A stretch of 35,991 bases of DNA. It comes from Eubacteriales bacterium. Lineage in GTDB: Bacteria > Bacillota > Clostridia > Lachnospirales > Lachnospiraceae. Shown here piece after piece: positions 18,796-26,740 of the stretch; within the stretch, counting starts at the first letter, position 1, and each line of letters opens with the position of its first letter. The notes under the pieces were generated by a model. It made no database searches and was not told the origin of the DNA. It was given only the letters and a program-made list of their open reading frames with translations. The stretch spans positions 1 to 35,991 of the forward strand of contig JAUNGJ010000012.1 in the NCBI GenBank assembly GCA_030524585.1, read 5' to 3'. Made by a program: the position numbers and the translations under genes.

Positions 18796-20958
18796 ATGGA
18801 AGAGCGCACAAAGGGAAGAGTTACGATTCCGACAGATATGGATGTGGTGCCGGAGACGCTTGAACTTTTGGAGCGGTGGGGAGCGGATGCGATCCGAGAT
18901 TGTGATGGGACAAAATATCCGGAAGAACTGCGTAATGTGGGGGCAAAGGTCTATTCGACCTATTACACAACAAGGAAGGATAACGAATGGGCAAAAGCGA
19001 ATCCGGACGAAATTCAGCAGATGTATGTTATGACGCCATTTTACACTGCAGTAGGAGATAAACTGAGTATTCATCTGATGAATCATCTGTATCCGGATAT
19101 GCTTGCAGTTAATTCCAGGGATGATATTACCCGCTGGTGGGAAGTGATTGACAGGACTACGGGAGAGGTGGTTCCGGTATCTCAGTGGGACTACGCTGAG
19201 GAAACGGGAGATGTGACGATTAGAGAAACAAAAGAGTTTCATGAATATACTGTAAGCTTTCTTGCGTATATTATGTGGGATCCAGTACATATGTATAACG
19301 CAGTGACGAACGATTGGCAGGGTGTGGAGAAACAGATTACCTTTGATGTGCGGCAGCCGAAGACCCGGGAGTTTTCCATGAAGCGGCTGCGCCGGTATAT
19401 TGAGGAGAATCCGCATATTGATGTGATTCGTTATACAACATTTTTCCATCAGTTTACTTTGATCTTTGATGAGCTGGCGCGGGAAAAGTATGTGGATTGG
19501 TATGGGTACTCTGCATCGGTGAGTCCGTATATTCTGGAACAGTTTGAGCGGGAAGCAGGATATAAGTTCCGGCCGGAATTTATCATTGATCAGGGCTATA
19601 TGAATAACACCTATCGTATTCCAAGCCGGGAATTTCAGGATTTTCAGGCATTCCAGCGCCGGGAGGTGGCGAAGCTTGCGAAGGAGATGGTGGATATCAC
19701 CCATGAATGTGGAAAAGAAGCCATGATGTTTCTGGGAGATCACTGGATTGGCATGGAGCCATTTATGGATGAATTTAAAGACATCGGATTGGATGCAGTA
19801 GTAGGAAGTGTAGGAAATGGCGCAACACTCCGTCTGATCAGTGACATTGAGGGTGTGAAGTATACAGAAGGACGATTTCTTCCATACTTCTTCCCGGATA
19901 CCTTCCATAAAGGAGGAAATCCGGTAAAGGAGGCGAAGGTAAACTGGGTGACCGCAAGACGGGCGATTTTGAGAAAACCGATTGACCGTATTGGGTATGG
20001 CGGATATTTAAAGCTTGCGCTGAAGTTCCCGGATTTTGTGGAGTATGTGGAAAGTGTCTGTAATGAATTCCGAACCTTATATGACAATATTAAGGGAACA
20101 ACGCCATATTGCATAAAGAGAGTGGCTGTTTTAAACTGCTGGGGCAAAATGCGGGCCTGGGGCAATCACATGGTGCACCATGCGATTTACTATAAACAGA
20201 ACTATTCTTATGCGGGAGTTATAGAGGCATTAAGCGGAGCGCCTTTTGATGTTGTCTATATCAGCTTTGATGATATCCGGCAAAATCCGGAGATTCTGAA
20301 AGATATAGATGTGATCCTGAATGTGGGAGATGCGTATACTGCTTATACAGGCGGTGAGAACTGGAAGGATGAGCAGATCATTACCGCGGTGAAAAAATTT
20401 ATCTACCAGGGCGGAGGCTTTATCGGAGTCGGAGAGCCGACCGCTTATCAGTGGGAAGGAAGGTTTTTCCAGCTTGCGGGTGTGCTGGGAGTAGAGGAAG
20501 AGAACGGATTTACACTCAATGTTGACAAATATAATTGGGAGGAGCATGAGCATTTCATTACTGCAGATGTTAGCGGCAAGGTCGATTTCGGCGAGGGGAA
20601 GAAGAATATCTATGCGATGCCGGAGACCGTTGTGATCTGTCAGAAGGATAATGGTGTGCAGCTTGCGGCAAACGAGTTCGGCGAAGGAAGATGTGTCTAT
20701 ATAAGTGGTCTTCCGTACAGCTTTGAGAACAGCCGCCTTCTGTACCGGGCAATTCTGTGGGCATCCAGTGCTGAGGAAAAGATTAAGTGCTGGTTTAGTA
20801 CCAATTATAATGTAGAGGTACATGCCTATGTAAAGAATGGTAAGTATTGCGTGGTAAATAATACTTACGAGCCGCAGGAGACCCGCGTCTATAGAGGTGA
20901 CGGCACAGGCTTTAACGTGCAGCTTGCGGCAAATGAAATACTCTGGTATGAGATATAG
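18796..20958 (+). CDS. gnpA: GH112 1,3-beta-galactosyl-N-acetylhexosamine phosphorylase
   Basis: Cytoplasmic phosphorylase, 720 aa, full family length. It splits lacto-N-biose or galacto-N-biose with phosphate into galactose-1-phosphate and GlcNAc or GalNAc, a step in using mucin and milk glycans. It starts with the family opening GRVTIPTDMDVVPETLELL; the barrel shows WWEVIDRTTGEVVP, YIMWDPVHMYNAVTNDW, FFHQFTLIFDE and FLGDHWIGMEP; a later glutamine-amidotransferase-like domain has GGGFIGVGEPTAYQWEG. GAAGGAGG precedes the ATG. Neither the GlcNAc kinase and UDP-sugar genes of the usual lnp cluster nor a sugar ABC importer is adjacent. Which isomer is preferred is not readable. Confidence 0.95.
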   Translation: MEERTKGRVTIPTDMDVVPETLELLERWGADAIRDCDGTKYPEELRNVGAKVYSTYYTTRKDNEWAKANPDEIQQMYVMTPFYTAVGDKLSIHLMNHLYPDMLAVNSRDDITRWWEVIDRTTGEVVPVSQWDYAEETGDVTIRETKEFHEYTVSFLAYIMWDPVHMYNAVTNDWQGVEKQITFDVRQPKTREFSMKRLRRYIEENPHIDVIRYTTFFHQFTLIFDELAREKYVDWYGYSASVSPYILEQFEREAGYKFRPEFIIDQGYMNNTYRIPSREFQDFQAFQRREVAKLAKEMVDITHECGKEAMMFLGDHWIGMEPFMDEFKDIGLDAVVGSVGNGATLRLISDIEGVKYTEGRFLPYFFPDTFHKGGNPVKEAKVNWVTARRAILRKPIDRIGYGGYLKLALKFPDFVEYVESVCNEFRTLYDNIKGTTPYCIKRVAVLNCWGKMRAWGNHMVHHAIYYKQNYSYAGVIEALSGAPFDVVYISFDDIRQNPEILKDIDVILNVGDAYTAYTGGENWKDEQIITAVKKFIYQGGGFIGVGEPTAYQWEGRFFQLAGVLGVEEENGFTLNVDKYNWEEHEHFITADVSGKVDFGEGKKNIYAMPETVVICQKDNGVQLAANEFGEGRCVYISGLPYSFENSRLLYRAILWASSAEEKIKCWFSTNYNVEVHAYVKNGKYCVVNNTYEPQETRVYRGDGTGFNVQLAANEILWYEI

Positions 20959-24555: not shown

Positions 24556-25200
24556 GTGGTGAAAACAATACTTTGCTATGGAGATTCAAATACATATGGC
24601 TATTATCCGGTGAATGGAGAAAGGCTTCCTAAAAGCATACGCTGGACAGGGCGTCTGCAGATGCTGCTTGGGGAGGATTACACGGTGATCGAGGAAGGCT
24701 GCAACGGCAGAACTACGGTGTATAAAGAGCCGATTGACGTCTGGAAATGTGGGCTGGAATATCTGAAACCGTGTCTGAACTCACACAAGCCGGTAGATGC
24801 TGTTGTGATGATGCTGGGAACAAATGATTTGAAAACCATGTTTCATGCAGGTGTCAGGGAAATTTCAGAGGGAGCAGAGCGTTTGGTGCAGGAGATTTAT
24901 GATTTTGCAGGGCAGAAGCAGAGTTTCCGGCCGCAGGTGATTTTGGTGTCGCCGCCGGAGATTGGAGCGGATATATGCAGCTCTTCGTTCCGGGACAGCT
25001 TTGACGAGACGGCGATAGACCGTTCAAAAGAATTTCCGAAGTATTACAGGGAAGTGGCCAGGCGGAATGGCTGTGTGTTTCTTGACGCGGCAAAAGTGGT
25101 GGCGCCATCGAAAGAGGACTCGCTGCATCTGATGCCGGAGGAACATGCAAAGCTGGCGGAGGCTCTGTATACCTGTATAAAGGAGAAGCTGCCATGGTAG
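24556..25200 (+). CDS. SGNH/GDSL-family hydrolase
   Basis: Cytoplasmic esterase/lipase-fold enzyme, 214 aa, no signal peptide. Catalytic blocks: CYGDSNTYG (Ser, block I), EEGCNGRTT (Gly, block II), MMLGTNDLK (Asn, block III) and DSLHLMPEEH (Asp-x-x-His, block V). It resembles arylesterase or acyl-CoA thioesterase-type members; the substrate is unknown. GTG 24556 follows AGGGAGG. Its TAG stop overlaps the ATG of the next gene (ATGGTAG), so the two are coupled in translation. Confidence 0.92.
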   Translation: MVKTILCYGDSNTYGYYPVNGERLPKSIRWTGRLQMLLGEDYTVIEEGCNGRTTVYKEPIDVWKCGLEYLKPCLNSHKPVDAVVMMLGTNDLKTMFHAGVREISEGAERLVQEIYDFAGQKQSFRPQVILVSPPEIGADICSSSFRDSFDETAIDRSKEFPKYYREVARRNGCVFLDAAKVVAPSKEDSLHLMPEEHAKLAEALYTCIKEKLPW

Positions 25201-25520
25201 AACTGAATGAGAATGCAATTGCCTATATGGAGAGGCGGAATTATACGGATATAGTTCTGAATGTAATAGAATTTACCAGCTGATGCGCACCTCCGCGCAT
25301 GGAGATATCAGTAGGCTTTGCTGATAAGGATGAAGCATATTATGCCGGACACGGATATGTCTGGGATGATAGTGTGATTGGTAAGGTGTATTACCCGAGA
25401 GAGGGTGTGGAGACAGAGGGACAGATTAGGGTGCGGTATATGGAATATCCGTGGATCAGTACCTTTGAGGTTGATGGAATTCGTGCGGCTTCTTTCGACA
25501 ATGATACGGATAAAGAATAG
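25194..25520 (+). CDS. Probable small selenoprotein (HesB/IscA-like; in-frame TGA read as Sec)
   Basis: One 108-codon frame runs from ATG 25194 to TAG 25518-25520, broken only by TGA at codon 30 (25281-25283), followed at once by TGC (Cys). AAAGGAG lies 8 bp before 25194, whereas the internal ATG 25299, where an ordinary gene caller would start, has no ribosome binding site. Both sides of the TGA read as one compact protein: ELNENAIAYMERRNYTDIVL and FTS, then Sec-Cys-Ala-Pro-Pro-Arg and MEISVGFADKDE, YVWDDSVIGKVYYP and YPWISTFEVDGI. The A-x-x-Y-helix-strand-Cys layout recalls IscA/HesB-like proteins, and families with Cys-Cys or Sec-Cys here are known to me from memory. A nonsense mutation is the alternative. 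Confidence 0.7.
25281..25310 (+). promoter_or_regulatory. Candidate bacterial SECIS hairpin
   Basis: Directly after the TGA, CTCC (25291-25294) pairs with GGAG (25301-25304) around the loop GCGCAT, enclosed by TGAT/ATCA. Competing with it, ATGCGC (25283-25288) pairs with GCGCAT (25295-25300). Either would be at the place a bacterial SECIS needs to be; neither is proof. Confidence 0.4.
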
Positions 25521-25537
25521 GAATGAAGGACAGACTT

Positions 25538-26740
25538 ATGAAAATGAATTATCAAAAAACAATATATGCGTGTTTTGTTGGATATATTGTGCAGGCAATC
25601 GTCAATAATTTTGTGCCGCTGCTTTTTTTGATGTTTCATGACAGCTATGGGATTCCGCTGGAGAAGATTACATTACTGGTAACCTTCAACTTTGGACTCC
25701 AGCTGCTTGTGGATTTGTGTTCGATTGGCTTTGTTGACCGGATCGGATACCGGGCATCCATGATACTGGCCCATGTGCTGGCTGCATCAGGAATGATTCT
25801 GCTTACGGTTCTGCCGGATTTATTTGCAGATTCTTTTGCCGGACTACTGATTGCAGTTATTATCTATGCAGTCGGCGGAGGTCTGCTGGAGGTTCTGGTA
25901 AGCCCGGTGATGGAGGCATGTCCGACGGATAATAAGGAGACGGCCATGAGCCTTCTGCACTCTTTTTACTGTTGGGGGCATGTGGGAGTGGTATTGATTT
26001 CTACCATTTTCTTTCAGCTGGCAGGCATTGAAAAATGGAAAATACTTGCAGTTTTGTGGGCGGTTATTCCGCTGTTAAATGCAGTTCTGTTTACAGCGGT
26101 ACCAATGGCGCCGCTGGTGGAAGAGGGAGAGAAGGGACTTTCAGTGAAGGAGCTTTTTTCTCTGAAAATTTTCTGGATTTTACTGCTGATGATGGTGTGC
26201 TCCGGCGCCAGTGAGCAGGGGGTTAGTCAGTGGGCATCTGCGCTGGCAGAGCACAGCCTTGGTATCAGCAAAACGGTTGGAGACCTGGCCGGACCCATGA
26301 CATTTGCCATTTTTATGGGAAGTGCCAGGGCATATTATGGCAGAAAAGGTGAGCGGATTGATCTGGAACGGTTTATGTATGGAAGCAGTATTCTGTGTGC
26401 AGCTGCCTATCTGATGATCGCACTGATTCCGATCCCGGCATTAGGATTAGTGGGATGCGGTCTGTGCGGCCTGTCCGTGGGGATTATGTGGCCGGGAACC
26501 TTCAGTATGGCGTCAGCTGCAATTAAGCGGGGCGGTACGGCTATGTTTGCCCTGCTCGCACTGGCAGGAGATGTGGGCTGCTCGGCAGGACCGACGCTGG
26601 CAGGTGCGGTATCGGGCATTTTGGGAGATGATCTGAGGAAGGGAATTATGGCAGCAGTTATATTTCCGGTACTTTTGGTCATTTCTTTGATCATAAAGAA
26701 GGAAAATACGAAAAAAGTGTTAGGTGAAGGTAATGAGTAA
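25538..26740 (+). CDS. MFS transporter, FucP/sugar-type or drug-type
   Basis: Membrane transporter, about 400 aa, with about 12 hydrophobic helices in two halves and a short cytoplasmic loop (EEGEKGLSVKELF). The segment after helix 2 (FVDRIGYRASM) is the MFS motif A place with the D-R-x-G pattern. Helix 5 region has YCWGHVGVV. The substrate cannot be deduced; the close relatives I would expect are sugar permease-like. ATG 25538 is used because GAAGGA lies about 7 bp before it; an ATG at 25523 is also open. It overlaps the MATE gene and starts soon after the selenoprotein gene. Confidence 0.88.
   Translation: MKMNYQKTIYACFVGYIVQAIVNNFVPLLFLMFHDSYGIPLEKITLLVTFNFGLQLLVDLCSIGFVDRIGYRASMILAHVLAASGMILLTVLPDLFADSFAGLLIAVIIYAVGGGLLEVLVSPVMEACPTDNKETAMSLLHSFYCWGHVGVVLISTIFFQLAGIEKWKILAVLWAVIPLLNAVLFTAVPMAPLVEEGEKGLSVKELFSLKIFWILLLMMVCSGASEQGVSQWASALAEHSLGISKTVGDLAGPMTFAIFMGSARAYYGRKGERIDLERFMYGSSILCAAAYLMIALIPIPALGLVGCGLCGLSVGIMWPGTFSMASAAIKRGGTAMFALLALAGDVGCSAGPTLAGAVSGILGDDLRKGIMAAVIFPVLLVISLIIKKENTKKVLGEGNE

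Follow-up and report, generated by a model that had tools for sequence, protein, structure and literature searches.

Within the window (the whole 35,991-nucleotide stretch of DNA that was analysed), the gene of interest directly follows a hydrolase gene on the forward strand; the features at this locus are given below in base-pair order.

24556 to 25200, + strand: upstream SGNH/GDSL hydrolase gene (PF13472, 65.5 bits)
25179 to 25185, + strand: ribosome-binding site AAAGGAG, 8 nt ahead of the ATG at 25194, a direct reading of the sequence
25194 to 25520, + strand: putative selenoprotein gene of 108 amino acids, with selenocysteine (Sec) as residue 30 and Cys as residue 31 in the motif TSUCAPP; frame, start and TGA are the same in 16/16 aligned close homologues, the window included
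25194 (start ATG) and 25518 to 25520 (stop TAG), + strand: ends of the 108-codon frame, whose sole TGA is codon 30
25281 to 25283, + strand: in-frame TGA, probably read as Sec; TGA in 16/16 close homologues, with Sec machinery in the genome
25284 to 25286, + strand: Cys codon TGC adjoining the TGA; Cys in 16/16 close homologues (TGC in 5, TGT in 11)
25291 to 25304, + strand: upstream hairpin CUCC/GGAG, at +8 to +21 from the TGA and directly before the SECIS-like hairpin
25299 to 25520, + strand: 73-amino acid ORF from the ATG at 25299, as given by the standard code (table 11); rejected as the real gene
25308 to 25324, + strand: SECIS-like hairpin of 7 bp (8 bp on folding, 25306 to 25326), with a small apical loop that has G first, 30-31 nt after the TGA

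Translated with U for TGA, the product begins MVELNENAIAYMERRNYTDIVLNVIEFTSUCAPPRMEISVGFADKDE. The first-pass annotation had described a single 108-codon frame with one TGA followed by a Cys codon, a start served by AAAGGAG, and a 73-amino acid product of ordinary gene calling; all of this is borne out by the sequence, and the interrupted frame recurs in all 16 close homologues. Its proposal that the gene is coupled to the SGNH gene holds for the window, where the start codon overlaps the stop codon of the SGNH/GDSL gene (ATGGTAG, an overlap of 7 bases); the neighbours in relatives differ. Promoter and terminator scans gave nothing better than was obtained with shuffled sequences.

When 397 genomes from the window's bacterial family were searched, matches turned up at 20 places in 17 genomes: 15 of the UC type (in 14 genomes, the window's own included), four of a distant UGG type, and one weak match, L035. 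TGA is present at the motif in all but the last; L035 gave 21.8 bits over 47 residues and was judged to be spurious. Three further loci were taken from named genomes: L036 (Lachnospiraceae bacterium), L037 (uncultured Dorea) and L038 (Mogibacterium kristiansenii). The resulting alignment, A1, has 16 UC-type rows, the window being one, and four UGG-type rows; the UC rows comprise the window itself, sequences from 13 more genomes of the family, and two additional records, of which one is Mogibacterium. L017, which lies on the same contig as L037, was left out of the counts, as were L035 and L033, the latter a truncated second copy in genome G323 that also has the TGA. This second G323 copy (L033, L058) diverges from the family past about residue 70 and is probably a truncated duplicate. 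Within the phylum sample of 398 genomes, the window's own genome was the only match among the candidates scored (1/398), and the gene was not found in the plasmid and viral-contig collections searched. Dorea is in the Lachnospiraceae, and as the Dorea contig (L017) falls within the family of the window's genome, that genome too is probably of the Lachnospiraceae. Mogibacterium is in the Anaerovoracaceae; the gene is thus not confined to Lachnospiraceae.

The motif in the UC-type rows is TSUC, or SSUC in L018, and the position of the start codon is the same in all 16 (14 ATG, one GTG, and one TTG). Cys or Sec in the codon 30 column of homologues had been named beforehand as support for a selenoprotein; what homologues have in that column is TGA, not Cys. 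Because the query carried Cys at the Sec column, Cys homologues were equally easy to find; no Cys version was present among the matches in the 397 family genomes, the named genomes, or the phylum sample.

The genome that contains the window has tRNA-Sec (64.3 bits, and also found by ARAGORN), selA (607.8 bits), selB (353.7 bits), and selD (393.1 bits), and a single contig, C92, carries all four; the same stretch of C92 holds genes for YedF, a selenium-metabolism LysR regulator, and a member of the cysteine desulfurase family. Codon 16 of its selD (L072:5230-6270) is an in-frame TGA, at the place where SelD selenoproteins have Sec, which makes SelD itself a probable selenoprotein. Across the sample, selA was above cut-off in 15 of the 17 gene-bearing genomes versus 7 of the 63 others; the corresponding Fisher p of 2.8e-9 treats related genomes as independent and is therefore too small. 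Likewise, tRNA-Sec was above cut-off in 5/7 gene-bearing genomes tested, versus 0/8 others. The two gene-bearing genomes without it were G231, which is 82% complete and also lacks selA above cut-off, and G124, in which selA is present. G104, 96% complete and carrying only a UGG-type gene (L054), has tRNA-Sec and no selA match. With the machinery in place and conservation continuing through the TGA, neither of the outcomes that the first-pass annotation named as refuting its selenoprotein candidate was obtained, and the candidate is supported.

The RNA immediately behind the TGA is also conserved. In UC-type genes the SECIS-like hairpin spans +25 to +41 nt behind the TGA. Codons 31-46 of the 16 UC-type genes were replaced by synonymous codons in 10,000 recodings, the related genes being taken as independent: the SECIS-like hairpin forms 109 of 112 pair cells, versus 70.6 +/- 4.2 after recoding, and the CUCC/GGAG hairpin forms 64 of 64, versus 33.9 +/- 2.9; in neither case did any of the 10,000 recodings reach the natural value. 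The genes are in fact related, but any two of them are on average unlike at over half of their third positions. Synonymous entropy is 0.65 bits over codons 31-37 and 0.62 bits over codons 38-44, versus 1.12 bits elsewhere.

Covariation between paired positions gives a more mixed picture. Over both helices, 98.3% of cells pair. The CUCC/GGAG pairs are invariant in all 16 homologues and hence show no covariation. Two pairs of the SECIS-like hairpin have changed on both sides (C-G/U-A and G-C/A-U), in seven cells, a value reached in none of 500 shuffles. Two of five covariation measures were not above shuffles, however: the number of pairs with two-sided changes was matched by 88/500, and the pair types by 492/500. 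When the partners were slid by three columns, there were still two such pairs and six cells, but only 54% of cells then paired.

The bacterial SECIS model, as set out in PMC13188914, has a loop of 3-9 nt, a stem of 4-16 bp, and a spacing of 16-37 nt, together with G in the first two loop positions and an energy of -7.5 kcal/mol or lower. This geometry was found in 20/20 genes, the UGG type included: the loops are of 3-5 nt with G first, the stems are of 6-9 bp, and the TGA-hairpin spacing is 30-31 nt in the UC type and 28 nt in the UGG type. Geometry alone proves little, because 15.4% of the 1314 TGA triplets of the window are followed by chance by a SECIS-geometry stem of 6 bp or longer. The energy limit was reached by 7/20 genes versus 20/1314 window TGA triplets when only the contiguous stem was scored; on that scoring the window hairpin, at -6.8 kcal/mol, falls short of the limit. 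The fold of 60 nt of window sequence, at -17.1, is moderately stable (z -1.32, with 15/200 shuffles equally good), and the minimum-energy fold of the window sequence alone keeps the SECIS-like hairpin and pairs the CUCC/GGAG stretch otherwise. Compared with this model, the geometry is alike; the differences are the second conserved hairpin ahead and the energy limit, which 7/20 reach on contiguous-stem scoring. In the CUCC/GGAG hairpin, GGAG has the look of an internal Shine-Dalgarno sequence hidden by pairing with its complement. An Rfam scan of 25100-25600 gave sub-threshold matches only; one of them, to SECIS_1, lies outside the gene at 25529-25596, scored 17.8 bits against a cut-off of 35, and was dismissed as a chance match.

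From the conservation and the machinery, we infer that the gene at 25194-25520 very probably encodes a selenoprotein of 108 residues. One alternative, which could hold alongside ours because it is a matter of classification, accepts Sec insertion and files the protein as a divergent member of a known family, either TIGR01911 (UxGP) or NF041239 (CC/Se); this we regard as unlikely, for the reasons that follow. An inventory of 119 prokaryotic selenoprotein families includes, in its accessible part, both of these, listing the HesB-like motif as UxGP and that of NF041239 as CxxU (PMC13188914).

The first-pass annotation mentioned small proteins with a CC or Sec-C motif from Clostridia. Such a family does exist as NF041239, whose Moorella-type members have a CC/Se motif and a similarly small length, and at E 10 or better this profile matches 6 of the 20 members of our set (best E 1.3e-5). 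Some relatives align to essentially its full length; thus, residues 2-95 of the UC-type L026 fall on profile positions 3-90 of 91, at 16.9 bits. However, in the 10/20 members that were scanned individually, the five scores lie between 13.0 and 25.2 bits, where the cut-off is 40, and the profile matches neither the window protein nor anything else in its genome. The motifs also differ, as TSUCAPP has Cys right after Sec and none at -3, where CxxU places it. NF041239 gave nothing at E 0.01 in 299 family genomes, which, as the relatives score so low, is not evidence of absence. Judged by sequence, NF041239 is a distant relative and not the same family.

The CxxU motif is, however, present in the four UGG-type relatives (L030, L031, L032, and L034), which form a sister group with CxTUGG, an in-frame TGA, and a hairpin 28 nt behind it. 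In A1, the UC-type Sec lies one column ahead of the UGG-type Sec, a register that depends on one gap, and this one-column difference counts against filing the UC type in a known family. The UGG-type relatives have an IscA-like predicted fold; as they also tie to NF041239, this suggests a possible IscA-like fold for that otherwise unexplained family. The UGG-type loci have DNA-repair neighbours in common: in two of them (L054 and L056), a PF01035 methylguanine-methyltransferase-like gene and a RecQ-like gene lie downstream (domains were scanned for L054), and L054 and L055 have a UvrD-like helicase upstream, as two ORFs in L054.

As for TIGR01911, the UCAPP of the window resembles UxGP, and the family has, through its HesB kinship, an IscA-type fold, but none of the 20 members matches the profile at E 10. 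In 299 family genomes there were two weak matches, none above cut-off and none in the window's own genome. The first-pass annotation also called the protein IscA/HesB-like; this part stands as a structure prediction and not as sequence similarity. The AlphaFold model resembles IscA, with a best Foldseek E of 1.6e-3 and none at 0.001 or lower, and an IscA-type fold is thus predicted; in the model, Sec30-Cys31 lies in the loop between predicted beta strands two and three, the place of Cys35 in IscA. Neither hhalign against E. coli IscA nor hhalign against IscA/SufA/ErpA was significant, and PF01521, like TIGR01911, had no match at E 10 in the 20 members. Identity to the IscA/SufA A-type carriers (PF01521) is 13%, and the window protein matches none of the Pfam and NCBIfam models. 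A-type carriers have Cys in the loop plus a C-terminal CxC, whereas the proteins in A1 have the loop Sec/Cys without the C-terminal CxC. Other apparent kinships were rejected: DUF4465, from a PDB-sequence profile search (E 2.7e-4 and 0.0026), consisted of weak pieces, the best of which had an E of 3 by itself; Pfam EIF_2_alpha (0.0011) and DM9 (0.0019) came from one member each and were dismissed. We class the UC type as a new Sec-Cys subfamily. In the accessible part of the 119-family inventory (PMC13188914) no UC-motif IscA-like family was found, and among the literature matches listed, at the level of titles and the openings of abstracts, there was no description of a UC-motif IscA-like selenoprotein.

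It might be supposed instead that the TGA is a true stop, that the real gene is the 73-amino acid ORF, and that the 29-codon leader is open by chance. The standard code does yield that ORF, and frames joined across a TGA are common: with at least 20 codons ahead of the TGA and at least 50 after it, the window has 39 (8 on the + strand and 31 on the - strand), this one included. Such frames arise by chance, and the observation alone would therefore be weak, with homology needed to decide; in 2/39, the selenoprotein candidate being one, the first start that qualifies has a Shine-Dalgarno-like site. The open frame is accepted as real because it is conserved in homologues. Pairwise differences at the three codon positions of the 16 UC-type genes are 0.33/0.25/0.57 over codons 1-29 and 0.29/0.21/0.53 over codons 31-97, so that third positions are the most variable on either side of the TGA and the leader is conserved as protein, from the same start in all 16. 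Met36, where the shorter ORF would begin, is present in 2/16 close homologues, the other 14 having K, L, or T. We consider a chance leader very improbable.

Nor does it seem credible that UGA has been reassigned (e.g., to Trp or Gly) or is read through without selenium, although the frame is still open beyond the TGA. Of 22 further long window ORFs that were checked, 7 end in an ordinary TGA stop, and UGA is thus not reassigned; both variants are also opposed by the presence of tRNA-Sec, selA, selB, and selD and by the co-occurrence of selA with the gene from genome to genome. That a pseudogene or an assembly error placed a stop in a once-intact gene has a negligible probability, for although the genome is a draft in 115 contigs, codon 30 is TGA in all 16 close homologues and never TAA, TAG, or sense, and the hairpin is conserved with it.

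For the preferred reading, a selenoprotein, the mechanism would be that SelB and Sec-tRNA read the UGA of codon 30 as Sec, guided by the hairpin 25-41 nt downstream. The Sec-Cys pair would form the working site at an IscA-type loop, with soft-ligand chemistry: it could bind and pass on a ligand such as a soft metal, a chalcogen, or an iron-sulfur cluster, or it could form a reversible Se-S bond. The handling of a metal, a cluster, or a chalcogen is a plausible but tentative assignment of function, and a purely redox role is a possibility that we hold more loosely. Genomic context gives no function, because no neighbour gene common to the UC-type relatives was found (start-overlapping genes such as SGNH were left out of this comparison); what was seen was an ABC transporter cluster in seven loci, a MATE-type cluster in four, and pairs confined to one genus.

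A bolder reading, which we think doubtful, is that this is an always-Sec family of IscA fold, in which Sec-Cys carries a soft metal, a cluster, or selenium/sulfur, no Cys version functions well enough to persist, and the hosts seem to do without ordinary IscA/HesB. PF01521 was above cut-off in 0/100 family genomes sampled, the window's own included, with four weaker matches. According to the deep-Sep paper, Cys homologues now seem to exist for all known selenoproteins, and its method may discard any that have none (PMC12013277). As no Cys version was found, the UC type is a candidate exception to that statement, at the level of a subfamily; the always-Sec reading, if true, would mean that one selenoprotein family has no close Cys homologues, contrary to what that paper says (PMC12013277).

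Routine annotation would probably trim the gene to its 73-amino acid fragment, and methods that demand a Cys homologue could drop it altogether. Lachnospiraceae are common gut bacteria. Since the relatives are mostly Lachnospiraceae, the selenium needs of such gut bacteria may exceed what annotation shows. The window also contains, at 18796-20958, a gene for lacto-N-biose phosphorylase (PF09508, 739 bits), in keeping with a gut bacterium that feeds on host glycans, and the bacterium is probably from the gut.
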